Shown here: positions 41,901 through 57,410 of the stretch, piece by piece
How positions within the stretch are numbered: position 1 is the first letter of the stretch
How the letters are laid out: every line of letters begins with the position of its first letter
Source: a virus
Length of the DNA: 58,251 bases
Direction: 5' to 3' (one strand)
Virus record (IMG/VR): IMGVR_UViG_3300017708_002093
Location: 1 to 58,251 of that record
The notes under the pieces: model-generated
The model's database searches: none
What the model was told of the DNA's origin: nothing
What the model saw: the letters and a program-made list of their open reading frames with translations, nothing else
Made by a program: the position numbers and the translations under genes

Positions 41901-44900
41901 AATAAAGACTTTAATTCACCTCTAAAAATTGGTTGCACTTCACACTTAAAATTTGCTGATGATAAATTCAATGTTGGAATTTCCAAATCTCCAATAACTT
42001 CAACTGTTATTGGAGGATAATTGAAAATGTGCTCTTCCCCACCGACAGAGGTTAAGTCTACATACTGATCAGATTCTAGAAGAAAATCTTCATTTCCAGA
42101 AGAAAAAATTTCATAAACTCTGAATGTATTATTATCAATTGGATTTACAAAGTAAGTTTTTCCTGAAGTTAATCCACCAATAGGATTACTTGATGTATAA
42201 ACCACTTTCTCCCTAAATTTAAATCCATGATTTTTTATGGTGACAGTATCAGTTGCTATGTTGATTTCAGATTTAGATGAAAATGCAATTACTTTTTTAT
42301 TTCTATATCCAGAACCACCAGATGTAATGTTAATGAATGATACTTTTCTTTTTTTTAGTTTTGATCTAAAAGTTTGATTTCCTAAATCACCAGAAGCTGC
42401 AATAGAAATAAAATTACCATTTGAAAAATTTTCTTCTGTTGAATACAATTTTATTGTATTAATTCCTACAACTCCAACATAATAAGTTGAATTTGTAGAT
42501 AAACCAGAGATAACAGAGTTATTTCCTGGATCGTAAATTACTTCTTCAAGATCAGAAAAATTATGTGCATCTTCAAATGTAATCTGATTTCCGTTGAGTG
42601 ATTGAGTATTTACAGTTAAAGATTTTAAATAATCATATTGTATTAAATTTGCTTCTGCACTAGCTCCAGATCCATTACCACCACTAATAATAACTTGTGG
42701 TATTTTAAAATAATTAAATCCAGAATTAGTGATATCAATTCTTTCTAATGATCCTGATACTGAAGCAGTTGCTACTGCCCCAGACCCTGACGATGAATCT
42801 ATACTAACTTCTGGAGGATTAATTACATCATACCCAAATCCTCCAGAAGTTACATCTATAGATTTTATTTCCCCGAAATAAATATAATCTTCCGATTTAT
42901 AATTTTGTATCTCTACACCATTAATAAAAATACCAGTAGGACCTGACTTAGTTTGAATAACTTTTTTGGTATTTAATGGGTCGCATATTTTTCTTATTAA
43001 TTTTTGTGGATGTAATATTTTTGATTCAAATAAATTAGTTTCTGTATTTAATTCATTGAAGTTAAAGAACTCAACTTTTACTTCATTAGATGAATAATCT
43101 GAAAAATTCAAATAAGTATTAGAAATAATTGATTCTTTATTCCTTGCAATTTTTATTGTTTTCGCATTAATTTTTTTTACATATCCAATTTCTTGAAAAT
43201 TGGGAGATTTTAGGATTACAAGATCCCCAGTCAAGAATGAATGCGAAGCAGATACAATCAGATTTATTTCTTCTTTAACAAAGTTTTCAACAGAAACACT
43301 CAAATCAGTAATTCTAATTTTAGTATTATTATAATTTGGTAGTGATGGTGATGTCACATAAACACTGTTTTCATCTCTATCATAGTAAGTATTCGAAACA
43401 TTAGAATTATAGATAGATAATTCTGGATAATTTAAAATTTCCGGTTTGGAAATTAATTTACGAATAGAACCTGAGTAATTTTTTTCTATTTCACCCTGCC
43501 CTCTAATAACTAAAGTGTTTTCATTATTGATCGATTGAACGACGCCAGTGGCATTTTTTGTATTTGTAAGTTCAAACTTATCTCCGATGTTAAAATCATT
43601 AGTTTCATAAGTTTTAATGCGATAAGTATTATCTGAACTATCTTCTAAATCAATAATACTTTCAATCTCATAACTAGATGAGACATTATAAATCCAACTA
43701 TCAAGTCTAGGGGAATTTAAATCACTTACTCCCAAACTTGATGATTTAATTACATCTCCAGGTCTTAAATATCTGCCATTGTCATTGTATTCAAGTTCTG
43801 AGATTACACCAGTAATTCTAACTCTTATTTCATCATCACCATCAATAGCAAATGAATATGATGTATCCTTTACTTCCTCTCTTTGATTTATTGTTTGATT
43901 GATTCCTTCACAATCAAAAAATTGATTTATACTTTTTGATTGGTAAGTAATATTTACAGTAGAACCGTTTGGTTGATCTATTATGAGTTGTCCACTATTT
44001 GGAAATCCCAAAGTCGAATCAACATCTAAATGAGTATCACCAGAAAATGCTCTACTAACTAGTCTTGTTTTTGGATGAATAGAAAAATTACCAGTAGTTG
44101 TTCCTCTAGTTTCAATGTCTTTATCGTAGTCAAAATCTATACTAACCAGATAATAAACTTTCGTTAGTGCTTCTGAAGATAATTCTGATGTATCGTCCAG
44201 AAATACACTATCCCTGAAAAGATTAGAAATTTCTATTTCTTCTACTGATGAGACTGTACCACTAGATCCATCTAAATTAAAAAGAGTTCTATTTTCCAAA
44301 TCTAAAGGATTACCTTGAATTTTTTCAACAACAAGATCTTTAGTTATTCTATAAGAAGATGCAGAAGGTTCTAGAAGATGATCTTTTGGTAAAATTATCT
44401 CGACAGGTTTCCCATAAAGAGCGCCAAATAAGATTCTAAATGATTCTATAGTTCCTTTAGATGAATAGAAATTATTAGATTGCTTTACAAACAGACTTTC
44501 ATTTAAATCATCAAAAAACGACCTATCCTCAAATCCAGGAGTAATTTGATTTTTTACTTTTCTAAAAAACTCTGTTAGTAAAATAGTATTTAAGTTATTT
44601 ACAACAGAATCCGAAGAATGTTCTACAGATTCAGTCTGTGAGAATGTCAATTCATCAATTGATGTCTTAGTATTATATGAAGTTACTCCAGAAAATCCTC
44701 TATAACAATTTTCGAAGGTTGTTGCAGTTTTGCTTTCATAAGAAATAATCTCATCATTAATTTGTATCAATCCATAACTATCTACAAATCCTGCAGTTGA
44801 CTCTACATTAATAACAGTATCAAACAGATCAACGTTAGCAGTTAATGTAGTAGAGTTGATCAGATTTGAAATATTATCAACCTTAACGTATTGGTCGATA

Positions 44901-45055: not shown

Positions 45056-46993
45056 TTATTTTCTAATTAAGGAACCGTTTGAATAACTTGAAGTTACTTG
45101 ATAATTTGTACCAGAGATATCATTACCAGAAGAAATGTTATCTTCTAAAATATTTAAGTCACTGTTACTAATATCTAGTTGTAAATATAAGTCCTGTAAT
45201 CCAATTACATCATTAGACTTTGGATTCATTGAAATTTGAATAGTATTAAATCCATTTTTAATTTTTTGTGTTCCTGTTATATTTAAGGTACTTAATTTTA
45301 TCTCTCCTTTCACATAATCAATTGATCCAGCATTATTTTTTAATATTTTAGGAGATCCATTTTCAATTTTGAAAATTGAAATTTTTCCTTTTTTGCTATC
45401 AATTGGAAAGTCTGTCAAATAAACGTTTCCAGTTACTCCTGCAATTTGAAAAGCACTTGACTTAATGTTATAACCAGTGCTGCAATTTGGTAAGTGAAAA
45501 GCATTTCCATAACAAATTTCATACGCAGCGAATTTGTTTATTTCTGGCATCAAATCTCTTCTAATTCTAATCTTTGTAATGTTTGATGTAATTGATGCAT
45601 TACTACTATCAATCAGATTCAAAAACTTACTGTATTTAAATCTAGATCCATAAGAATTTAATTCTGATGATTTTGAATACTTTGTAATATTATCCGATAC
45701 TATACTGAGAACTTCTGATCTTGAATTTGCTTTATTAGTATCAAAGTAAATTACGGTATCATATTCAACGTAAAGATACTTTAGATCAATTATTTCAGGA
45801 ACAATTCCAGCAACATTATATTTTTTAAGTCTTGCCTTAATGTTATCTTTTACTTGGTTAGAAACAAATTGCCCATTGATTGGTTTGATTGAGATAAAAA
45901 CTCTACCATAATTTGGAGGATTTAATTCTTCTCCACCATAAGCAGAAACTGATTCTGCTTCTGGATAAATCATGGGAATTAAAGATTCATAATCTGAAGA
46001 AGTAACTGCTCTATTTTGAGCAGCGTAAATTCTTGGAGCATACTTTCTCACAAACTCCACAGACTCTATTGGTTTTCCACCACGAGAAGCAGAATCTGTA
46101 CTTACAAGTGAAAAATCTCGTGTTATTAACCTATCCTTATCATCAAGAATTCTACCAGCAAAACTAAAGTTTGATGCGCCATTTGATTCTTCACCTGAAC
46201 TAATGTTATAAGAAACTTCAATAACATTACCATTATTTAATTTTTTACCAAAAATACCATCACCAAAAATAAGTTCGTATCTTTGATCTTCAATTTCCTG
46301 AATGTAAAAAACTTTTGATGTTGAATCGACATCAAAAATAGTGTTTGCTAAATTAAATTTCCTAACTACACTAGATCCTTCACTATCTCTGACATAGACA
46401 TTTAATGTAGAGGTGTCAATTTTTGGATTAGATAAAATAAATTTTTGATTTGGAACTAAAGAATCAACTACAAAAGATTCCGAGGTGTAATTACCTTCAA
46501 TAATTTCTATAGAATCAAACTGTGCAATGTTATTGACAATTGGTACAGTAATAGTTTCTGGAATTGCAAATGTAAATGATTTTGATGCACTTCCAGCACC
46601 AAAAGAATTTGTAGTTGCTACAATTCCTTTCTGGAGAATTAATTTTAATGGTTTATTTTCTGCTGTCTCATTGTTTATAGAAAGTTCTGTTATGTCAACA
46701 AAGAAACTAATGTTTGCTCTTGAAGATGTTACTGATCTAGGAACATAACCAATGTTCCTTGCAAGAGAAACAACATTCTCTCTTAGAGTAGCACTATCAA
46801 TAAAAACCTCATTACTAAGCATGTTAGCATTGTATGAGGTAATGTATGTGTTATATGATAATGCATCGATAATGACTGAAAGATTTGACCCCTCAAAATC
46901 ATAGTCAGTAAAATCTGAATTCGCTCTTAGGTAATCGCGAATTGTTTCTTTTATTTGGTCGAAATCTAAATTTGAAAAATTTGCTAATGTCAT
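45056..46993 (-). CDS. 6: Baseplate wedge protein gp6
   Basis: A 645-residue protein (T4: 660). MTLANFSNLDFDQIKETIRD, NLSVIIDALSYNTYITSYNANMLSNEVFIDSATLRENVVSLARNIGY, and AVTSSDYESLIPMIYPEAESVSAYGGEELNPPNYGRVFISIKP are classic gp6 features. It forms the inner ring of wedges around the hub. It abuts gp25 on one side and precedes the giant gp7-like gene by 6 nt. It probably uses the late promoter ahead of gp25. Confidence 0.96.
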   Translation of the reverse strand: MTLANFSNLDFDQIKETIRDYLRANSDFTDYDFEGSNLSVIIDALSYNTYITSYNANMLSNEVFIDSATLRENVVSLARNIGYVPRSVTSSRANISFFVDITELSINNETAENKPLKLILQKGIVATTNSFGAGSASKSFTFAIPETITVPIVNNIAQFDSIEIIEGNYTSESFVVDSLVPNQKFILSNPKIDTSTLNVYVRDSEGSSVVRKFNLANTIFDVDSTSKVFYIQEIEDQRYELIFGDGIFGKKLNNGNVIEVSYNISSGEESNGASNFSFAGRILDDKDRLITRDFSLVSTDSASRGGKPIESVEFVRKYAPRIYAAQNRAVTSSDYESLIPMIYPEAESVSAYGGEELNPPNYGRVFISIKPINGQFVSNQVKDNIKARLKKYNVAGIVPEIIDLKYLYVEYDTVIYFDTNKANSRSEVLSIVSDNITKYSKSSELNSYGSRFKYSKFLNLIDSSNASITSNITKIRIRRDLMPEINKFAAYEICYGNAFHLPNCSTGYNIKSSAFQIAGVTGNVYLTDFPIDSKKGKISIFKIENGSPKILKNNAGSIDYVKGEIKLSTLNITGTQKIKNGFNTIQISMNPKSNDVIGLQDLYLQLDISNSDLNILEDNISSGNDISGTNYQVTSSYSNGSLIRK

Positions 46994-47395
46994 CTATCGT
47001 GTTTGCTGTAATGCAAATGATAATTGTTGCTGTGAAGCATTAATGCCTATGATTCTATAAGTTACTGATACATCAAATTCTAAAGTAGAGAAGTTTGGTA
47101 CTACTTTAACATCTAGTAAATTAACTCTTGGTTCATACAGATTGATTGATTCTCGAATCTGATCTTTAATAGTATCTGCAGAAAACTCACTCATGTTTTC
47201 AAATAAAGAGTTTGAAACAAAACTTCCAAAGTCTGGATCAAAAAACTTCTCTCCAGGTTGAGTTAATACAATATTACGAATAGAACGAGAAATTGCAGTC
47301 TCATTTTTGAGTGCAATCAAGTCATTATTCAGTGGATTCATTAGAAATGACCCACTGATATCTTTAAATCCTTTGCTTATTCGTTCTAAGGGCAT
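46994..47395 (-). CDS. 25: Baseplate wedge protein gp25 (lysozyme-like fold)
   Basis: A 133-residue protein (T4: 132). It contains the conserved EPR motif at 88-90 (NLYEPRVNLLDVKV), the SRSIRNIVLTQPGEKFFDPDFGS segment and a final QQQLSFALQQTR. gp25 joins sheath to baseplate and triggers sheath assembly. It leads directly into gp6, as in other cyanophages. A late promoter lies 22 nt upstream. Confidence 0.97.
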   Translation of the reverse strand: MPLERISKGFKDISGSFLMNPLNNDLIALKNETAISRSIRNIVLTQPGEKFFDPDFGSFVSNSLFENMSEFSADTIKDQIRESINLYEPRVNLLDVKVVPNFSTLEFDVSVTYRIIGINASQQQLSFALQQTR

Positions 47396-50966: not shown

Positions 50967-51152
50967 TTAGGAGAGAATCATACTCTTCTGTGAGATCTCC
51001 TTAATCTCCATGATCACGTAGTCATAATCACGCTCAAGTTCTTCCTTGTAGGCATCAGCAGCAGACTGAGAATCGAAGAGGCGAAGTGTTACCATTGATT
51101 CTCCTTCGTAATCAATGCCACCGATGACAGCGATACATTTAATGGGTTCCAT
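50967..51152 (-). CDS. Small hypothetical protein
   Basis: A 61-residue protein, MEPIKCIAVIGGIDYEGESM ..., with an early strand pair and the helix SQSAADAYKEELERDYDYVIM. The layout suggests a compact alpha/beta unit; no known motif. It is the first gene after element copy 1 (core 51206-51227), 39 nt away. Confidence 0.75.
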   Translation of the reverse strand: MEPIKCIAVIGGIDYEGESMVTLRLFDSQSAADAYKEELERDYDYVIMEIKEISQKSMILS

Positions 51153-51190
51153 GATTGTGACTTAGTGGTTTGGATTGTGTGGGTTGTGTC

Positions 51191-51228
51191 CTTACACCTA
51201 AGGGTCAATCTCAAAGTTAGCTATTTTG
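51191..51228 (-). promoter_or_regulatory. Conserved intergenic element, copy 1
   Basis: Core 51206-51227 identical in all nine copies (plus-strand CAATCTCAAAGTTAGC...). It precedes the gene starting at 51152. Flanking CAATCTCA/TGAGATTG can pair to form an 8-bp hairpin. Confidence 0.75.
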
Positions 51229-51263
51229 TAACCCTGAGATTGTGATGCTTATGTGTTACTTAC

Positions 51264-51509
51264 TCAAGCAATGAGTTCTTGTAACATTTCGTTCAATTCT
51301 TCATGGTTCAGATTCTCATCCTGCCATAATGTGCCATCGGGGGTTTCTTCTTGAAACATCACAACTAAGCACTTTGCAATTGCTGAATATTCAGTCACTT
51401 TGCTATTAAGTAGACCAATCACTTGGCGATAGATTGACTCATCATTCTGTATCCAAAGTGATACATTCCAAGTCTGATAGTTTGCCCAACCGTTGTAAGT
51501 TTGTGTCAT
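51264..51509 (-). CDS. DUF7249-like small protein
   Basis: An 81-residue protein starting MTQTYNGWANYQTWNVSLWI. This start (51509) has GGAGA ten bases upstream and lies downstream of the conserved element; a frame to 51551 exists but its extra residues are encoded by promoter-leader sequence. The opening YNGWxNYQTWNVxLWIQND is a well-known motif of small proteins in phages and plasmids (DUF7249 from memory). The C-terminus is acidic (ENLNHEELNEMLQELIA). Function unknown. Confidence 0.85.
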   Translation of the reverse strand: MTQTYNGWANYQTWNVSLWIQNDESIYRQVIGLLNSKVTEYSAIAKCLVVMFQEETPDGTLWQDENLNHEELNEMLQELIA

Positions 51510-51552
51510 GATTGTTGTCTCCATTTGGTTTGGATTGTGTGGGTTGCTCACC

Positions 51553-51590
51553 CTTACACCTAAGAGGCAATCTCAAAGTTAGCTATTTTA
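51553..51590 (-). promoter_or_regulatory. Conserved intergenic element, copy 2
   Basis: Core 51568-51589. It precedes the gene starting at 51509 by 44 nt and follows the large inverted repeat at 51624-51715. Confidence 0.75.
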
Positions 51591-51623
51591 ACTCAAAAAT
51601 ACTAAATGATGAATAAGGACACA

Positions 51624-51715
51624 ATAAGACCCTTAGGATACACTGAGACCTGAGATGAGTTTCTGTTGTTCTCAGAGGCATGTAGAGGGGTCTCAGTGTA
51701 TCCTAAGGGTCTTAT
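51624..51715. repeat. 27-bp perfect inverted repeat
   Basis: Arms 51624-51650 and 51689-51715, perfect over 27 bp, loop 38 nt. A nested 6-bp pair CTGAGA/TCTCAG (51650-51655, 51670-51675) lies at the loop edge. No T run follows on either side. It lies between the gene ending at 51742 and element copy 2. Confidence 0.9.
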
Positions 51716-51741
51716 GAGTAGGTGATACTTATGGAGTGCAA

Positions 51742-51927
51742 TCACCCATGGTAGTGATAAGCATCATCTCCTTTATCGAAGTCTTCAATGTAACTCTCTA
51801 CCTTCTCATTTGGTTCGAGTTTGAATAACTTATTGAAGTCAATCTCTCTTGGATTAAAATCAGGCATCACAGTTAAATCAAGTGTAATCCTAACCTTTCT
51901 CTTTCTTGCTATCTGATAAGAAACCAT
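51742..51927 (-). CDS. Small hypothetical protein
   Basis: A 61-residue protein, MVSYQIARKRKVRITLDLTV, then MPDFNPREIDFNKLFKLEPNEK and an acidic tail with YHYHG. No family is recognised. A consensus sigma-70 promoter lies 29 nt upstream, so it is likely an early gene. The large inverted repeat follows its stop. Confidence 0.8.
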   Translation of the reverse strand: MVSYQIARKRKVRITLDLTVMPDFNPREIDFNKLFKLEPNEKVESYIEDFDKGDDAYHYHG

Positions 51928-51955
51928 GAGATTAATGCGAATTGATGACCTTGTT

Positions 51956-51984
51956 ATTATAGTATCTTATGGGGAAGATGTCAA
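51956..51984 (-). promoter_or_regulatory. Consensus sigma-70 promoter
   Basis: On the minus strand TTGACA (51984-51979), 17 nt, TATAAT (51961-51956): both hexamers and the spacing are ideal. It lies 29 nt before the ATG at 51927. An AATAAATA (52003-51996) just upstream is probably chance. Confidence 0.85.
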
Positions 51985-52114
51985 CGAAGTCTTTGTATTT
52001 ATTCGGAGACCTTATGAGAATTTTATGAATGTCCTGGGATGCTTATTATTGGGGCGCTTGACTTATGGGGGCGTTGATGATAGAATTCCATCTAAGATCA
52101 CAAGGTCTCAGCAC

Positions 52115-52260
52115 ATTTCCACAAGGATTAGTGGTCTTAAGAGTACATTAATCATAAGGTTTTCCACACATAACCAATACTTTTCCACAGGTTTTCCACA
52201 CACAACAAAACACACAACATGATTAAAAATAACATTTAATTATCTTTTTAATGTATTTTA
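52115..52260. other. Candidate replication origin: DnaA-box cluster plus AT-rich DNA
   Basis: Within the gene-free stretch 51928-52322 the plus strand has three TTTTCCACA (52160-52168, 52181-52189, 52192-52200) and one ATTTCCACA (52115-52123). TTTTCCACA is the cyanobacterial form of the DnaA box. Starts are 21 and 11 nt apart, close to whole helical turns. A very AT-rich segment (52215-52260) follows, as in DNA-unwinding elements. The origin role is inference. Confidence 0.5.
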
Positions 52261-52285
52261 ACCCCTATTTTACCTCATAGGCATT

Positions 52286-52307
52286 AAAAAAGGGGCATAA
52301 GTGCCCC
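52286..52307 (-). terminator. Terminator after the charged coiled-coil gene
   Basis: 6-bp GC stem GGGGCA/TGCCCC with a 4-nt loop, then six T on the minus strand. Confidence 0.88.
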
Positions 52308-52322
52308 CCTAACATAAAAGAA

Positions 52323-52520
52323 CTAAATCCCTTTCCTAAGTTCATCTTTCACTTCATCTTTCACTTCATCCTTTAATTTTTTCAACCTTTCTTCTTCTCT
52401 CTCTTCTCTTTCTTTTTCTAATTGTTCTTTCTTTCGGAGTGAATCATCTTCTCTTGCTTGATTCGCAATGTCAAGTCTTCGAGTATCAATGTCCTCCTTA
52501 AATCTATGAAATGATTTCAT
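52323..52520 (-). CDS. Small charged coiled-coil protein
   Basis: A 65-residue protein, over half Lys, Arg, Glu and Asp; KKEQLEKEREEREEERLKKL is one long charged helix. The repeat DEVKDEVKDEL ends it. It may be a simple charged helix with DNA- or protein-binding properties; no family is recognised. A terminator follows it and a direct repeat lies upstream. Low-complexity sequence makes the prediction less certain, but ATG, length and terminator fit a gene. Confidence 0.65.
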   Translation of the reverse strand: MKSFHRFKEDIDTRRLDIANQAREDDSLRKKEQLEKEREEREEERLKKLKDEVKDEVKDELRKGI

Positions 52521-52579
52521 CTATCTCTGTATGATTGTTTCCACTATTTAATAAAAACTGTTTTTCTTGCATTGGGATT

Positions 52580-52612
52580 GTCATTCAGATGTCATAGGTC
52601 ATTCAGGTGTCA
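52580..52612. repeat. 15-nt direct repeat, 18-nt period
   Basis: GTCATTCAGATGTCA (52580-52594) and GTCATTCAGGTGTCA (52598-52612), one mismatch. It lies 60 nt upstream of the gene starting at 52520 and could be an operator. Confidence 0.6.
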
Positions 52613-52640
52613 GTTATTAACAAATCAGTTTATATACATT

Positions 52641-52667
52641 AAAAAACCCCCTGTATGTTACAGAGGG
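52641..52667 (-). terminator. Terminator after the 44-residue gene
   Basis: 9-bp stem (CCCTCTGTA pairing with TACAGGGGG, one G-T wobble) with a 3-nt loop, then six T on the minus strand. Confidence 0.9.
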
Positions 52668-52694
52668 ATGTAAGTTACCTTAAAGTTATCTACT

Positions 52695-52829
52695 TTAATT
52701 GGCAATGTAGTTAGTATCAACAATCGTCACAACTTCTCCATCAGATTGTAAAACATCGTATTGAACTTGATTCGTTCCGATGTCTGCTTTACCGACAATA
52801 ATGGCAGTGGAAAGAATGAACTCTAGCAT
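52695..52829 (-). CDS. Very small protein (44 residues)
   Basis: MLEFILSTAIIVGKADIGTN, then QVQYDVLQSDGEVVTIVDTN and YIAN. The first half is hydrophobic with only one charged residue early (E3), so it may be membrane-associated or a strand pair. The sequence is not low-complexity and a proper terminator follows. I recall similar short proteins in cyanophages, but without function. Confidence 0.7.
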   Translation of the reverse strand: MLEFILSTAIIVGKADIGTNQVQYDVLQSDGEVVTIVDTNYIAN

Positions 52830-52859
52830 TTGTGTGTGTGTGTTGGTTTAGTGTAAGAA

Positions 52860-52884
52860 ATTAAGATTAAGATTAAGATTAAGA
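52860..52884. repeat. TTAAGA tandem repeat
   Basis: Four consecutive copies of TTAAGA, at and after the stop codon of the gene ending at 52879. Slippage there would not change the protein except at the very end. Confidence 0.85.
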
Positions 52885-53136
52885 CACTGGATCTAATCCT
52901 AATCGATATCTTGCTGCATCAATTGCATCCTTTCTCTTATTGAATAGTGCTGGTTCTTGTTCATACCTTAGTTGAGTGTAACGATACTTTTTAACATAAT
53001 GTCCTAGTTGTTCATCTTTGTCCATGACTGTTTTACTATAAAAGTAAATTGCAAAATTACCTTTTGGATTTCTTTTACTCTCCTTATTAATAAGATAAGG
53101 AGAAGGAGTTGTTGTTGATGGAAGTAGTTTAATCAT
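52879..53136 (-). CDS. Small basic hypothetical protein
   Basis: An 85-residue protein: MIKLLPSTTTPSPYLINKES, FAIYFYSKTVMDKDEQLGHY, KKYRYTQLRYEQEPALF and an Arg-rich end (AIDAARYRLGLDPVS). The start overlaps the stop of the next gene upstream (53133-53136), so the two are coupled. No family or motif is recognised. Confidence 0.75.
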   Translation of the reverse strand: MIKLLPSTTTPSPYLINKESKRNPKGNFAIYFYSKTVMDKDEQLGHYVKKYRYTQLRYEQEPALFNKRKDAIDAARYRLGLDPVS

Positions 53137-53477
53137 GAGAAGATGTAACCGTTAGTGAAATCATAGACGTTGTAGACTTTACTTTGTCCTGCCATTCCTA
53201 CAAACTTTCTTACAAACCACTTATAATTCTTTTGGAATACACCTTCACCAGCAATACAAAACTCATCACAGAGTGCATTAAGTCTGGATTTTGTTGTATT
53301 TGATTGATAACCACCATCAAAGATAGTCATGCTATCATCATCAATCTCCGCAATTTTATTACCGTGAAGATATACTTCTGACACATTATTTGCATCAGTG
53401 ATAACACTTGTGTTTGCAGATTGCCAGTTCTGATTGTTATGAACTGCTGCACACATTTGGGTTTCGATCTTTCTCAT
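53133..53477 (-). CDS. Conserved hypothetical protein, 114 residues
   Basis: MRKIETQMCAAVHNNQNWQS, NTSVITDANNVSEVYLHGNK, IFDGGYQSNTTKSRLNAL, and GEGVFQKNYKWFVRKF. The pattern (MRKIExQM..A, VYLHGNKIAE, DGGYQSNTTKSRLN, GVFQK) is one I recall from several cyanophage genomes with no assigned role. It may be a small alpha/beta regulator. It is coupled to the 85-residue gene after it. Confidence 0.85.
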   Translation of the reverse strand: MRKIETQMCAAVHNNQNWQSANTSVITDANNVSEVYLHGNKIAEIDDDSMTIFDGGYQSNTTKSRLNALCDEFCIAGEGVFQKNYKWFVRKFVGMAGQSKVYNVYDFTNGYIFS

Positions 53478-53516
53478 GATTTTAGAATAGTGTTTGTTTG
53501 GTTTAGTCCTTAAGTA

Positions 53517-53702
53517 TCACTCACCGTGAAAGGCAAAGTGTGCATCGACTACAAAATCAATGACTTCGACAACTTCATGATCCTGAACATCATGACGATC
53601 ACAAAACCAGTCGATGCAATCATCAGCAGGTAACATAGTGTCGAGCATGAAATCTTGCAGATCTGAAAGATTTTCGGCGGAGAAAAGAATGGTTTTGTTC
53701 AT
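53517..53702 (-). CDS. Small acidic hypothetical protein
   Basis: A 61-residue protein: MNKTILFSAENLSDLQDFML, CIDWFCDRHDVQDHE and DFVVDAHFAFHGE. Several Asp, His and Cys might bind metal but no known motif is formed. Element copy 3 lies 24 nt upstream. Confidence 0.75.
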   Translation of the reverse strand: MNKTILFSAENLSDLQDFMLDTMLPADDCIDWFCDRHDVQDHEVVEVIDFVVDAHFAFHGE

Positions 53703-53725
53703 AGTTGGTTTGTCTTGGTTGTGTG

Positions 53726-53762
53726 CTTACACCTAAGTGGCAATCTCAAAGTTAGCTATTTT
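53726..53762 (-). promoter_or_regulatory. Conserved intergenic element, copy 3
   Basis: Core 53741-53762; it overlaps the stop codon of the gene ending at 53761 and precedes the gene starting at 53702. Confidence 0.75.
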
Positions 53763-53949
53763 AATCCAACTCGATTTGCCAGTCATTGTCATCAATTAGA
53801 TTCACCCAAAAGTGATTCTTATTGTTCGCAGAGGTGAGGAATACTTTGTTTCCTAAATGTTGCTCTACAAAACATTCCTGTAGTTTGTCCATTAAGTTAC
53901 AGAAACGATTCTGTGCTTTTTTACTCTTTGGTGTTACGATTGCGATCAT
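53761..53949 (-). CDS. Small hypothetical protein
   Basis: A 62-residue protein: MIAIVTPKSKKAQNRFCNLM, then DKLQECFVEQHLGNKVFLTS and a tail with NKNHFWVNLIDDNDWQIELD. A compact alpha/beta fold is likely. I recall similar proteins in cyanophages; role unknown. It directly precedes element copy 3, with 6 nt separating it from the gene upstream. Confidence 0.8.
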   Translation of the reverse strand: MIAIVTPKSKKAQNRFCNLMDKLQECFVEQHLGNKVFLTSANNKNHFWVNLIDDNDWQIELD

Positions 53950-53955
53950 GATGAT

Positions 53956-54225
53956 TCAGGCGGTAAGATTTGCAATTTTGAAGACACTCACCTCATGAGA
54001 GTCGTTAGCATCAACAAGGACAGGATTATCCTCAAAGGTCATCTTAATGATGCTAGGATTATGCTCCTGCCATTCAGTTAATGTTCGACCTTGAATGTTA
54101 CCCTTGCGAGGGCGATTGGTAAGTTGTTTAATAGTTTTGAACTCTGAATCAGAAGTTCTATCATCAAAGAAAAAGGTAATCTTTCTCCTAAATGTTGCAA
54201 CCACTGGGTAGTTTGGAATGTTCAT
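53956..54225 (-). CDS. Small hypothetical protein
   Basis: An 89-residue protein: MNIPNYPVVATFRRKITFFF, DDRTSDSEFKTIKQLTNRPR, QGRTLTEWQEHNPSIIKMTF and HEVSVFKIANLTA. Beta-rich with no recognised motif. It follows element copy 4 by 24 nt, with a leader nearly the same as that of the gene starting at 53702. Confidence 0.75.
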   Translation of the reverse strand: MNIPNYPVVATFRRKITFFFDDRTSDSEFKTIKQLTNRPRKGNIQGRTLTEWQEHNPSIIKMTFEDNPVLVDANDSHEVSVFKIANLTA

Positions 54226-54248
54226 AGTTGGTTTGTCTTGGTTGTATC

Positions 54249-54285
54249 CTTACACCTAAGTGGCAATCTCAAAGTTAGCTATTTT
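54249..54285 (-). promoter_or_regulatory. Conserved intergenic element, copy 4
   Basis: Core 54264-54285; the last base meets the stop codon of the gene ending at 54285. Confidence 0.75.
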
Positions 54286-54515
54286 TATTGCTGGAAATAC
54301 TCTCCGATTGCCTTACTCATGGCGATAAGTTTCTCGTGGATCTCATCAACCTCACAGCGAAGATTCTCTTCTTCACCCATTAAACTCATCAGGTCAACTT
54401 CACTCCAATCCTCAAAATTTACCGTTCCATCTTGATACAAAGGAGTGTAATATAATGCCCCTTCACTACAAATGGAATAGGCACAACCTTGATTCTCAGC
54501 GATGTAAATGTTCAT
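54285..54515 (-). CDS. Small hypothetical protein
   Basis: A 76-residue acidic protein: MNIYIAENQGCAYSICSEGA, LYYTPLYQDGTVNFEDWSEV, then a helix with EVDEIHEKLIAMSKAIGEYF. It has an ordered look but no recognised family. Its last codons (GEYFQQ) resemble those of a decayed fragment at 57410. Confidence 0.75.
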   Translation of the reverse strand: MNIYIAENQGCAYSICSEGALYYTPLYQDGTVNFEDWSEVDLMSLMGEEENLRCEVDEIHEKLIAMSKAIGEYFQQ

Positions 54516-54523
54516 TGTAACAA

Positions 54524-54664
54524 TCAGAATGAAATGTTGATTTTGTTTGTTGTATCAGGATTGACGATTTCTGCTGCATTGTTGAGACCATCAGCAGCAA
54601 TTCTTCGGGCGTCATCACTACTCCAGAACAGAATAGCGATGACAATCAGTGCAATAACTTTCAT
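54524..54664 (-). CDS. Very small secreted or membrane protein (46 residues)
   Basis: MKVIALIVIAILFWSSDDAR is a short hydrophobic N-terminal helix, which may be a signal or anchor, followed by RIAADGLNNAAEIVNPDTTN and KINISF. It sits between the 76- and 83-residue genes and starts 4 nt after the latter stops. No cysteine for lipidation. Role unknown. Confidence 0.75.
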   Translation of the reverse strand: MKVIALIVIAILFWSSDDARRIAADGLNNAAEIVNPDTTNKINISF

Positions 54665-54668
54665 GGGT

Positions 54669-54920
54669 TCAGCAAGAACAAGCAAGAGCAGAATTGAACA
54701 ACTGAGGAATCATAGATTCGTCGGTTACTTGATAACCATAACCATGAGTACGGGAATCAAACTCATACTGAAAGTCTTTTTTATTGATGTAACGCTTGGA
54801 CTGAGATTCGCCCATGAAAGTTACAATTTTGAGCATCAGACGATTGTGAATCTCACCGTCAGCAAATTTGACGGGATAGAAGTCAACAACCATGTTGCCA
54901 TCTTTGGAAGTGAGTTGCAT
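54669..54920 (-). CDS. Small hypothetical protein
   Basis: An 83-residue protein: MQLTSKDGNMVVDFYPVKFA, EIHNRLMLKIVTFMGESQSK, KDFQYEFDSRTHGYGYQVTD and LFNSALACSC. Beta-rich N-terminus; two Cys at the end. No family recognised. Element copy 5 lies 15 nt upstream. Confidence 0.75.
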   Translation of the reverse strand: MQLTSKDGNMVVDFYPVKFADGEIHNRLMLKIVTFMGESQSKRYINKKDFQYEFDSRTHGYGYQVTDESMIPQLFNSALACSC

Positions 54921-54934
54921 AATGGAAATGCGTG

Positions 54935-54972
54935 CTTACACTATAGGGACAATCTCAAAGTTAGCTATTTTA
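54935..54972 (-). promoter_or_regulatory. Conserved intergenic element, copy 5
   Basis: Core 54950-54971; here the downstream flank contains TATAGT, a near-consensus -10. It can form an AATCTCA/TGAGATT hairpin with the flank. Confidence 0.75.
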
Positions 54973-55008
54973 ATTGCCTGAGATTATGATGGTTTGATGT
55001 TACTTAGT

Positions 55009-55290
55009 CTACACCATTTCTTGTTGATACTGCATCAGTTGCTCTTCTGTAACCTCATCCACACAGTCTTGAATGACAGTGTAGATATAATCAATCTGAC
55101 CAACATCATCAAAGATACGTGCAATCAATGCAGGATCTTCTACCTGAACATCATAATCAACCTCACCATTTTCATCCTTTACATGTATATCTTCCTTCGT
55201 ATAAATCCATGCTGCACATTCTGCATCTTCTCCCTGTTGTGCAATCATACTTGATACTCTGTCTTGAAGTTGCTTGAGAGTGTAGTTCAT
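55009..55290 (-). CDS. Conserved acidic hypothetical protein
   Basis: A 93-residue acidic protein: MNYTLKQLQDRVSSMIAQQG, ECAAWIYTKEDIHVKDENGE, IARIFDDVGQIDYIYTVIQD and EEQLMQYQQEMV. The MNYTLKQLQDRVxxMIxQQGExA..AAWIYTKED pattern is one I recall from cyanophages. No activity known. Confidence 0.85.
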   Translation of the reverse strand: MNYTLKQLQDRVSSMIAQQGEDAECAAWIYTKEDIHVKDENGEVDYDVQVEDPALIARIFDDVGQIDYIYTVIQDCVDEVTEEQLMQYQQEMV

Positions 55291-55346
55291 AATTTGAATA
55301 AATGAGGTGAGTGAGTGTTAATTAGTGTGAGATGAGTAAGTGTTAG

Positions 55347-55589
55347 TTAAGAGAGAACATAGGTACTCAGATCATTACGATTATCGCAAGATGCCCAAGT
55401 ATCATAGAAAGAATCCCATGCTGTTTCGTTATCAACAAAGGAAACAATTTCCAACATCTCACATACCCAATCGTATGCCATATCTATGTCGGCATTTGTA
55501 TCATTCACAAAGACGCACATTTGCCCCATAATGTCATCCCACTTCGCTTGTTGTTCAGATGGAATCAGAGAGAAAATTGGAGTTGACAT
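55347..55589 (-). CDS. Small hypothetical protein
   Basis: An 80-residue protein: MSTPIFSLIPSEQQAKWDDI, MAYDWVCEMLEIVSFVDNET and a Trp/Asp-rich end (WASCDNRNDLSTYVLS). Mostly helical. No family recognised. Element copy 6 lies 29 nt upstream. Confidence 0.75.
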   Translation of the reverse strand: MSTPIFSLIPSEQQAKWDDIMGQMCVFVNDTNADIDMAYDWVCEMLEIVSFVDNETAWDSFYDTWASCDNRNDLSTYVLS

Positions 55590-55617
55590 AAAGAAAGATT
55601 TTTGGTTTGGTTGTGTG

Positions 55618-55655
55618 CTTACACCTAAGGGGCAATCTCAAAGTTAGCTATTTTA
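55618..55655 (-). promoter_or_regulatory. Conserved intergenic element, copy 6
   Basis: Core 55633-55654; partial GGGGCAAT...ATTG and AATCTC/GAGATT pairing with flanks. Confidence 0.75.
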
Positions 55656-55666
55656 ATTGACCGAGA

Positions 55667-55822
55667 TTACTGAACCTTGATTTCTAGTTCTTCAATGCGA
55701 TCATAAAGACTAGAAACTAATTCTAGGAGTGCTCTAAACTTCTCATTAGTCTCCTTTTCTTCTCTCTTATAACATACTCCATTGGAGTAATATTCATGAT
55801 AGAAAATGTCGTCTGTGTACAT
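55667..55822 (-). CDS. Very small coiled-coil protein (51 residues)
   Basis: MYTDDIFYHEYYSNGVCYKR, EEKETNEKFRALLELVSSLY, DRIEELEIKVQ. The second half is a clear coiled coil. Its stop lies 12 nt before element copy 6. It is probably real: the frame is intact with ATG and the composition is protein-like. Confidence 0.75.
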   Translation of the reverse strand: MYTDDIFYHEYYSNGVCYKREEKETNEKFRALLELVSSLYDRIEELEIKVQ

Positions 55823-55844
55823 TTGATTTTCTTTTTAATTGGTC

Positions 55845-56132
55845 TCAATCGTTCCATGCAGTTACAACAAACTCATCATTCTTAATGATGACATTGGCAC
55901 CGAATGTACCACCCAAAGCAAACATCAACATGTCGCTAATCTCATCATCAGTGAAATTACCTTGAGTAAAACTACCCTTGTTGATTGTTGAACAACCAGA
56001 TGCTTGAATGTCACTCAAGTTTAGGCAAATTGCTTTCCTAATCTCTTCAGTATTGATGCACTTCATTGCACCAGAGTCATACTGTATCATAGTGGTGAAA
56101 GTGTCGAGAATGTTAGTTTTGGTTTGTGTCAT
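55845..56132 (-). CDS. Small hypothetical protein
   Basis: A 95-residue protein: MTQTKTNILDTFTTMIQYDS, EEIRKAICLNLSDIQASGCS, FTQGNFTDDEISDMLMFALG and VIIKNDEFVVTAWND. No family recognised. It has an ordered helical core. Element copy 7 lies 20 nt upstream. Confidence 0.75.
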   Translation of the reverse strand: MTQTKTNILDTFTTMIQYDSGAMKCINTEEIRKAICLNLSDIQASGCSTINKGSFTQGNFTDDEISDMLMFALGGTFGANVIIKNDEFVVTAWND

Positions 56133-56151
56133 AATTTTGTTTGGTTGTGTG

Positions 56152-56189
56152 CTTACACCTAAGGGGCAATCTCAAAGTTAGCTATTTTA
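56152..56189 (-). promoter_or_regulatory. Conserved intergenic element, copy 7
   Basis: Core 56167-56188. The full element here is bounded by a perfect 8-bp GGGGCAAT/ATTGCCCC inverted repeat and followed by a 7-bp stem-loop. Confidence 0.78.
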
Positions 56190-56192
56190 ATT

Positions 56193-56211
56193 GCCCCTGA
56201 TTTACAGGGGC
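56193..56211 (-). terminator. Stem-loop beside element copy 7
   Basis: Perfect 7-bp stem GCCCCTG/CAGGGGC with a 5-nt loop, just after the DUF2786 gene and just before element copy 7 on the minus strand; no long T run. This is a stem-loop plus promoter arrangement. Confidence 0.65.
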
Positions 56212-56221
56212 ATTGTATCAA

Positions 56222-56902
56222 TCAAACACCGCAGAGTTGTTTAGTAGTTCTACCACCAGTTTGCTTTCTTAGTGATACATTGCTGCCTACATCTGCTCCA
56301 GCAGTAGCACCAGCACCAGAAGCACCTCTGAATTTAGTGTTAGAATTGAATCGCATTTTGCTCAATGCAGTAACAACTGCTTGCTTATCTTCGTGAATAC
56401 GATTCTCCTCTTTTTTCATCTCTCGCAGTCGATCAGAAACCTGTTCTGCAAATGATTTCTTGAAATTAATCTTGAAAGATCGTGAAACTTTAGTATCAAT
56501 AAGTTCACCAATAATCTTCTCTGCTTTGTATGCTTTATCTGCCTCACGGTTCATAACATCAATCAGAAACTCACTGTAAAGATTGACCTGAATCTGTTGT
56601 GCTTCACTACCAATTACTTGGATAGTTTTAGCACCATTGATGTCAGTTTTAACGTATGCTTTTGCATCGTAAAACTTAGCAACAGCGTTGACAATCTGAG
56701 TGAAAGCAACATCCATCTTCTTAAAAGATGTAAACTGTTCATCAACAGCAAGAACCTCTTTTGCTTCCTGCAAAGTGATACCGTGCTTTGCACACAATTT
56801 ATCAATCATTGCCGCAGCAGCAGATGCTTCACCATCAAAATCTGTGCTCTCTTGAAGTTTGAGCATAGACTTAATCTTGGCGATGACTTGATTACGATCC
56901 AT
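56222..56902 (-). CDS. DUF2786-like protein
   Basis: A 226-residue protein starting MDRNQVIAKIKSMLKLQEST at 56902; the frame could extend to 56947 but the extra residues are encoded by element copy 8. The N-terminal 45 residues (KIKSMLKLQ...EASAAAAMIDKLCAKHGI) match a DUF2786 domain as I recall it (K-I-x-x-L-L-x-L, E-A-x-A-A-x-x-x-x-x-L-x-x-x-H-G-I). Then a beta-helix mix, NREADKAYKAEKIIGELIDT, and a Gly-rich tail. DUF2786 proteins are often near plasmid and phage regulatory genes; function unknown. Confidence 0.8.
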   Translation of the reverse strand: MDRNQVIAKIKSMLKLQESTDFDGEASAAAAMIDKLCAKHGITLQEAKEVLAVDEQFTSFKKMDVAFTQIVNAVAKFYDAKAYVKTDINGAKTIQVIGSEAQQIQVNLYSEFLIDVMNREADKAYKAEKIIGELIDTKVSRSFKINFKKSFAEQVSDRLREMKKEENRIHEDKQAVVTALSKMRFNSNTKFRGASGAGATAGADVGSNVSLRKQTGGRTTKQLCGV

Positions 56903-56923
56903 TTTTGTTTGATTTGGTTGTTG

Positions 56924-56961
56924 CTTACACCTAAGGGACAATCTCAAAGTTAGCTATTTTA
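56924..56961 (-). promoter_or_regulatory. Conserved intergenic element, copy 8
   Basis: Core 56939-56960; it overlaps the stop codon of the gene ending at 56959. Confidence 0.75.
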
Positions 56962-57159
56962 ATCAGGCATCAATCCTTCAAGAGTTTCTTCATCATAAAG
57001 GTCAAGGATTTCAGACTTAACATCATCTTCATCCCAATCTTTGATGTTCTGTTCAATACTCTCAACAGCAAAAGTGATGAGAGTATCCATGTCCATGCCT
57101 TCAACAATCAACTCAGCATAGTTGAGTTTGAGTTGGTCAAGTTTAGAAGTGGTCAGCAT
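56959..57159 (-). CDS. Small acidic hypothetical protein
   Basis: A 66-residue protein: MLTTSKLDQLKLNYAELIVE, MDTLITFAVESIEQNIKDWD and VKSEILDLYDEETLEGLMPD. Acidic and helical. I recall relatives in cyanophages. It starts 2 nt after the gene upstream ends, so they are likely on one transcript from element copy 9. Confidence 0.8.
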   Translation of the reverse strand: MLTTSKLDQLKLNYAELIVEGMDMDTLITFAVESIEQNIKDWDEDDVKSEILDLYDEETLEGLMPD

Positions 57160-57161
57160 AA

Positions 57162-57362
57162 TCAGTTCAGAATAATTTTGTAGTCAATAGACTTAATGCA
57201 CCAACCAAAGGTACATGTGATCTCTTCGATTAGATCATCTTCATCATCTGCTTTCCAAATTGTTTCAAGAGTGTCAGCAGTTACATTATCAAAATGGTGT
57301 TGAGTCCATTCACCAAACTCATCTTCAAAATCAAACTCAACTTGTGTGACTTGGAATTGCAT
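57162..57362 (-). CDS. Small acidic hypothetical protein
   Basis: A 66-residue protein: MQFQVTQVEFDFEDEFGEWT, TADTLETIWKADDEDDLIEE, ITCTFGWCIKSIDYKIIL. The DEDDLIEEITC..GWCIKxIDY pattern recurs in cyanophages as I remember. Compact beta/alpha unit. Element copy 9 lies 11 nt upstream. Confidence 0.8.
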   Translation of the reverse strand: MQFQVTQVEFDFEDEFGEWTQHHFDNVTADTLETIWKADDEDDLIEEITCTFGWCIKSIDYKIILN

Positions 57363-57372
57363 TGGTTTGTTG

Positions 57373-57410
57373 CTTACACTATAGGGACAATCTCAAAGTT
57401 AGCTATTTTA
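57373..57410 (-). promoter_or_regulatory. Conserved intergenic element, copy 9
   Basis: Core 57388-57409; the flank contains TATAGT as a -10-like sequence. Distance to the ATG at 57362 is 11 nt. Confidence 0.75.

Follow-up and report, generated by a model that had tools for sequence, protein, structure and literature searches.

The 58,251-nucleotide (nt) stretch of viral DNA analysed here, IMG/VR record IMGVR_UViG_3300017708_002093 and hereafter the window, is a fragment of a T4-like cyanophage (Kyanoviridae) that carries nine copies of a short intergenic element in front of nine small genes. These elements are probably promoters of an early gene class, at which host RNA polymerase would act together with a lineage-specific factor bound to a box of 9 base pairs (bp) within the element. 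In the sequences compared, the box is a label of the genome and not of the gene: orthologous genes keep the element while their boxes change in concert.

The first-pass annotation had placed nine identical 22-nt cores in the window, at 51206, 51568, 53741, 54264, 54950, 55633, 56167, 56939 and 57388, and these were all recovered. The 16-mer of the core occurs exactly nine times, always on the plus strand, and the full 22 nt (CAATCTCAAAGTTAGCTATTTT on that strand) are identical in 9/9 copies; shuffled windows average 1.15 matches even with 3 mismatches allowed. All nine copies lie in gaps between genes and in one orientation, as had been stated, and most start at or beside the stop codon of the preceding minus-strand gene. 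Because the genes served are on the minus strand, the element reads TTAAAATAGCTAACTTTGAGATTG-N4-(TTAGGT/TATAGT)-GTAAG, with ACAAAATA at the start of the first copy. Seven copies have TTAGGT as the hexamer and, as noted earlier, two have TATAGT. The spacer before the hexamer had been described as variable at 4-5 nt, but it is exactly 4 nt in all nine. The closeness of the start codon stands and its measure changes: the 11-44 nt first counted from the core become about 10-38 nt after TGTAAG on recounting. Sequence identity among the copies is 100% in the core, 71% downstream and 33% upstream. The structural half of the window is indeed free of the element, because a weight-matrix scan of the 58 kb finds the nine known copies, all on the minus strand, and no others. 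The copies and the block that they serve are as follows; the start codon behind the copy at 51568 is uncertain.

51191-51227, minus strand: element 1, box TAGCTAACT, predicted -10 TTAGGT; precedes gene 51152-50967
51553-51589, minus strand: element 2, box TAGCTAACT, predicted -10 TTAGGT; precedes the gene running from 51551 (GTG) or 51524 (ATG) to 51264
53726-53762, minus strand: element 3, box TAGCTAACT, predicted -10 TTAGGT; precedes gene 53702-53517
54249-54285, minus strand: element 4, box TAGCTAACT, predicted -10 TTAGGT; precedes gene 54225-53956
54935-54971, minus strand: element 5, box TAGCTAACT, predicted -10 TATAGT; precedes gene 54920-54669
55618-55654, minus strand: element 6, box TAGCTAACT, predicted -10 TTAGGT; precedes gene 55589-55347
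56152-56188, minus strand: element 7, box TAGCTAACT, predicted -10 TTAGGT; precedes gene 56132-55845
56924-56960, minus strand: element 8, box TAGCTAACT, predicted -10 TTAGGT; precedes gene 56902-56222 (226 amino acids)
57373-57409, minus strand: element 9, box TAGCTAACT, predicted -10 TATAGT; precedes gene 57362-57162
50967-57362, minus strand: functionally uncharacterized small genes, the block that the elements serve; adjoins gp25 (46994-47395), gp6 and gp7-like baseplate genes

The core is not confined to the window. Exact copies occur in other IMG/VR contigs, and the family to which they belong is widespread among relatives. The exact core with the complete layout was found in 3300007541_000228 (about 20 copies), 3300010354_005760 and 3300020055_001096. 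Elsewhere in IMG/VR the exact 16-mer occurs without this layout, apparently by chance. The downstream half of the element, used as a query, brought in contigs with other cores, namely type B (TTACTCACT-TTGAGATTG) and type C (TTACTCACC-TCCAGATTG and similar). In total, 256 pattern-matched elements (209 of them non-redundant) were collected from IMG/VR contigs and isolates, and the isolates that carry the family are S-SM2, SynMITS9220M01, S-B05, S-B43, RN05-S and RB11-B. A BLAST search with type C led to isolates, with 12 copies in SynMITS9220M01 and about 8-14 places in each of S-B05, S-B43, RN05-S and RB11-B. Queries with types C, D, E and GGGGGGACG each matched isolates, and a BLAST search of INPHARED with the type A element gave no match. 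Upstream of some type B elements (contigs L041, L042, L044 and L045) there is an inverted half-copy (CTTACACCTAAGGC...), which could be half of a divergent promoter or a hairpin.

All types share one geometry, numbered here by placing the -10 hexamer at -12 to -7: the box at -34 to -26, nine bases at -25 to -17, four at -16 to -13, the hexamer, and GTAAG at -6 to -2. Of the 209 non-redundant elements, 90% have C at -13, 90% have T at -12, 76% have A at -11 and 98% have T at -7, all of these being positions that the element pattern leaves free. The hexamers of contig 3300007541_000228 are TAAGGT, TATGGT, TAGGGT and TTAGGT. Among copies to which an ATG was assigned, about two in three have it 8-15 nt from the predicted +1, and across the family the ATG usually lies about 9-13 nt past the expected start.

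The behaviour of the box was analysed without choosing any box, by fetching contigs with the proximal half TAAAGNGTCNCTATAGTRT alone, which gave at least 120 stretches. These contigs hold at least 207 elements, and the commonest boxes are GGGGGGACG (at least 49), TTACTCACC (at least 17) and GGGGGGTCG (at least 16), followed by ACTGAGCCA and TTAGTTACC (at least 12 each), TTAGTAACC (at least 11), TCCGGGGCC (at least 10), ACTGAAGCC (at least 8), TAGCTCACC (at least 7) and others. The count of at least 15 box types is approximate, because the contigs are fragments and some perhaps come from one virus population. Among the matches listed, boxes in contigs with two or more copies are 96.2% identical within a contig and 45.1% between contigs, and the highest value reached in 500 permutations is 53.3%. 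In the flanks of the same elements, identity is 35% within and 27% between contigs at -50 to -44, and 42% and 36% in the leader; the sole invariant position of the box is C at -27.

Eighteen groups of related downstream proteins cover two or more element types, and 156 orthologous pairs that cross types show 72% identity in the 18-nt core. Within a single genome, core identity between different genes is 100% in the window, 99% in 3300007541_000228, 96% in contig L044 and in SynMITS9220M01, 95% in contig L050, and 90-91% in S-B05 and RB11-B. The 226-amino-acid product of window gene 56902-56222 is 89-90% identical to its orthologues in contigs L050-L053, and its box is TAGCTAACT where theirs is TTACTCACC. 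In S-SM2, which is related to SynMITS9220M01, twelve copies carry GGGGGGTCG exactly where TTACTCACC stands, mostly followed by the same CTAAAGYGTCCCTATAGT.

The copies are tightly grouped in complete genomes. In SynMITS9220M01 (190 kb), the weight matrix gives 12 matches, all on one strand, at 36.3-50.0 kb; exact-pattern copies number ten in S-SM2 (one strand, 42.7-57.1 kb) and twelve in RB11-B (one strand, 159.6-171.3 kb), with none elsewhere in either genome. All of them lie within the small-gene block before gp25-gp6-gp7, and no element was found at the replication genes, which are middle genes in T4, of these three phages. Of the 48 copies in annotated isolates, 41 fall between genes, even though coding sequence makes up 85-88% of the stretches concerned. 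Some annotated starts fall inside the element (TATAGT-ATGAG), at 42711, 53466, 54389 and 55323 in S-SM2, at 45208, 46141, 46879 and 48601 in SynMITS9220M01, and at one place in S-B05 and one in RB11-B. Should the element be a promoter, these annotated starts would be wrong and the next ATG the likely start; at S-SM2 54389 there is an in-frame ATG 18 nt further on.

Under the reading that we prefer, each element would be the promoter of the small gene, or short operon, that follows it. The -10, which is TATAGT in its stronger form and weakened to TTAGGT in most window copies, would be recognized by the host's RNA polymerase carrying its main sigma factor, and the box would replace the -35 contact by binding a lineage-specific and probably phage-encoded factor. 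Since all copies of one phage share a box, a single factor could activate all the small genes at once, probably at an early stage of infection. Phages of Synechococcus have wholly different boxes, which argues that the putative factor is more likely encoded by the phage than by the host. If infection requires it within the first minutes, it would need to arrive with the virion or come from another promoter. The first-pass annotation had likewise seen a phage-specific promoter with a -10, no -35 and a special factor, and this is well supported by the more than 250 copies of fixed geometry, mostly with TATAGT, by the short distance to the start codon and by the genome-specific box. We infer promoter activity, and activation over repression, from these sequence features. 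The early timing we infer from the gene block and from Doron et al. 2016, in which a novel element reportedly controls the early genes of phage Syn9, host-like promoters drive its middle genes, and the elements are said to be widespread in T4-like cyanophages.

Several points weigh against this reading. TTAGGT, the commonest hexamer in the window, matches TATAAT poorly, so that the -10 assignment there rests mainly on alignment with relatives, and the conserved GTAAG directly after the -10 is not accounted for by a standard promoter. Some copies in the annotated isolates overlap annotated genes or have no annotated start nearby. Contig collection itself relied on patterns that prescribe part of the proximal half, and in certain scans the -10 as well, which is why the sets found with no -10 in the search matter; in these, TATAGT makes up 9/12 copies in S-B05, 7/12 in RB11-B, 7/9 in SynMITS9220M01 and 11/14 in contig L050. 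Finally, a protein comparison of SynMITS9220M01, RB11-B and S-SM2, which listed proteins closer between the first two (same box) than to S-SM2 (other box), gave no convincing candidate for the recognition factor.

A protein of about 67 amino acids (phrog_2171) occurs in cyanophages in two clearly different forms, encoded at 37474-37677 of L054 (SynMITS9220M01), at 9723-9953 of L100 (S-SM2) and in L255-L334. In seven contigs its form broadly agrees with the box type, which at first made it a candidate factor; the protein is, however, widely conserved, and the 80 further contigs have no countable elements.

The label middle-type, which the first-pass annotation had attached to the elements, finds no support in the comparison with T4. 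The resemblance to T4 middle promoters is that a phage-specific box stands in place of the -35, 13 bp from the -10 here and 12±1 bp for the T4 MotA box (PMC2988021), and that a sigma70-type -10 occurs, as TATAGT in most relatives and in weak form in the window. Among the differences, the copies here stand in small-gene blocks and not at replication genes. The early class is more likely than the middle class. The MotA box itself (WWWTGCTTtA) was rejected, the boxes here being TAGCTAACT, TTACTCACC, GGGGGGTCG and others, and so was MotA as the factor: its domains PF09114 and PF09158 were found in T4, the positive control, and not in SynMITS9220M01, S-SM2 or RB11-B. This absence agrees with the report that cyanomyoviruses have no homologues of motA, asi, alt and mod and that their mechanism of early and middle transcription is unclear (PMC2984593).

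Other repeated promoters offer further comparisons. The early element reported for Syn9 comes from the same virus family and reportedly serves a gene set of the same kind, and it may be related to the present family. However, a weight-matrix scan of Syn9 gave no match to the present elements, and its gaps carry another motif, AAGKTGKCAC-like. This motif recurs in the small-gene-block gaps of Syn9 (NC_008296) at 46304, 47218, 49091 and 51003-51292 as AAGTGTCCAC, AAGGTGGCAC and AAGGTGTCTAC, several of these standing ahead of TATTCTATAAGAGTC-like sequences, and is possibly the counterpart of the present element; a motif search upstream of Syn9 genes returned coding-sequence noise only. In a PeSL (promoter early stem-loop), a strong sigma70-type promoter is joined to a terminator stem-loop, and such units recur, as the present elements do, between the small genes of a variable region. 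Module shuffling between phages is a further trait ascribed to PeSLs; bearing on it indirectly, gene content around the present elements varies. The present elements have no good -35, no conserved stem-loop or pairing and no excess of folding, and a PeSL or terminator reading was rejected. PeSLs of T4-type phages are described in Arbiol 2010 and Comeau 2014, as cited in PMC4503421. The intergenic repeats of halovirus HF2 also carry promoters, with activity in reporter assays according to the abstract of PMC8707807; that is an archaeal virus with archaeal promoters, and the abstract does not mention a genome-specific box. The family here would belong to the phage-specific, factor-dependent promoters. 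Neither a genome-specific box nor the box sequence in a promoter context was found described in the searchable literature, whose coverage is incomplete.

The strongest rival explanation is that the box is an operator, at which a phage-encoded repressor of phage-specific specificity would silence the small genes jointly; the stoperators of mycobacteriophage L5 follow a comparable logic. Asymmetric repeats that share one orientation, sit in short gaps, agree within a phage and differ from one phage to the next suit a repressor equally well. However, the box keeps one fixed distance from the -10, in the place of a -35, and as no good -35 is seen, something must replace it. In addition, the carriers are T4-like phages of a lytic group, and on the whole a repressor is unlikely. 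It is less likely still that these are ordinary host-type promoters with no special factor, whose identical core stems from recent duplication or gene conversion. The -10 is present and some copies elsewhere look duplicated (contig L049), but identity is limited to about 18-22 bp with differing flanks, and an exact search of the GTDB genome collection did not find the window element. The box is also wholly different between the Synechococcus phages S-SM2 and SynMITS9220M01, which one host sigma factor would not explain.

Two further alternatives look past transcription. The element might act as RNA, as a leader structure, a processing site or a translational signal before the start codon, and its position near that codon, the possible help of GTAAG(G) in ribosome binding, and a CAATT/GATTG hairpin possible in some copies (8 bp at 56167) are consistent with this. 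The possible pairs are fully kept in type B only, however, and the other types lack compensating changes. Averaged for each type, folding z-scores lie between -0.57 and +0.30, hardly better than shuffled sequence; Rfam gave three sub-threshold matches to microRNA families only, none on an element; and an RNA element would not be expected to show a -10 pattern. Such a role is very improbable. We give the lowest probability of all to a site of recombination or cassette exchange, as proposed for PeSLs, with promoter function secondary. Gene and element do behave as cassettes in a gene-rich variable block, and identical repeats can recombine, so recombination may be a side effect. Yet there is no conserved inverted repeat or terminator, the uniformity of the box is sharply bounded, and the fixed -10 geometry and start-codon distance demand another cause.

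The rest of the window is consistent with a T4-type phage. Its proteins match T4-type gp46, gp47, a helicase, gp22, gp20, gp18, gp17, gp23, gp25 and UvsY, and a Kyanoviridae Gp96 protein, and at the DNA level it is closest to myoviruses of Synechococcus and Prochlorococcus, among them SynMITS9220M01, S-SKS1 and S-SM2. The element block lies past gp25, gp6 and a gp7-like gene of 4,025 amino acids, an order also annotated in S-SM2, SynMITS9220M01, S-B05 and RB11-B. T4-type late promoters (NATAAATA) accompany the structural genes: the motif occurs 15 times on the coding strand and 5 times on the opposite one, with several copies directly upstream of gp22, gp20, gp18, gp8 and gp25 (some of these gp numbers are assigned by position); the late -10 TATAAATA is not present in the nine elements. 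In the gap between element 2 and gene 51742-51927 there is a perfect 27-bp inverted repeat with a 38-nt loop (51624-51650 / 51689-51715), which forms a strong hairpin and drew sub-threshold microRNA matches at 51624-51715 in a loose Rfam scan.

If the elements are promoters, the family provides a precise promoter model, with predicted start sites, in the isolated phages S-SM2, SynMITS9220M01, S-B05 and RB11-B. It would also allow early genes to be recognized in uncultured cyanophage contigs, and it suggests corrected start codons. More broadly, the family points to a putative DNA-recognition factor that has switched specificity many times, which, if true, would be a rare natural series of promoter-factor co-evolution. 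We further propose, tentatively, that in many T4-like cyanophages the box may be a 9-bp barcode of early promoters, the same at all 10-20 promoters of a phage and free to vary between phages. A phage-encoded specificity factor that switches fast would read this barcode and so direct each phage to its own early genes only. Such self-addressing, if real, might act for example against co-infecting relatives or host countermeasures.

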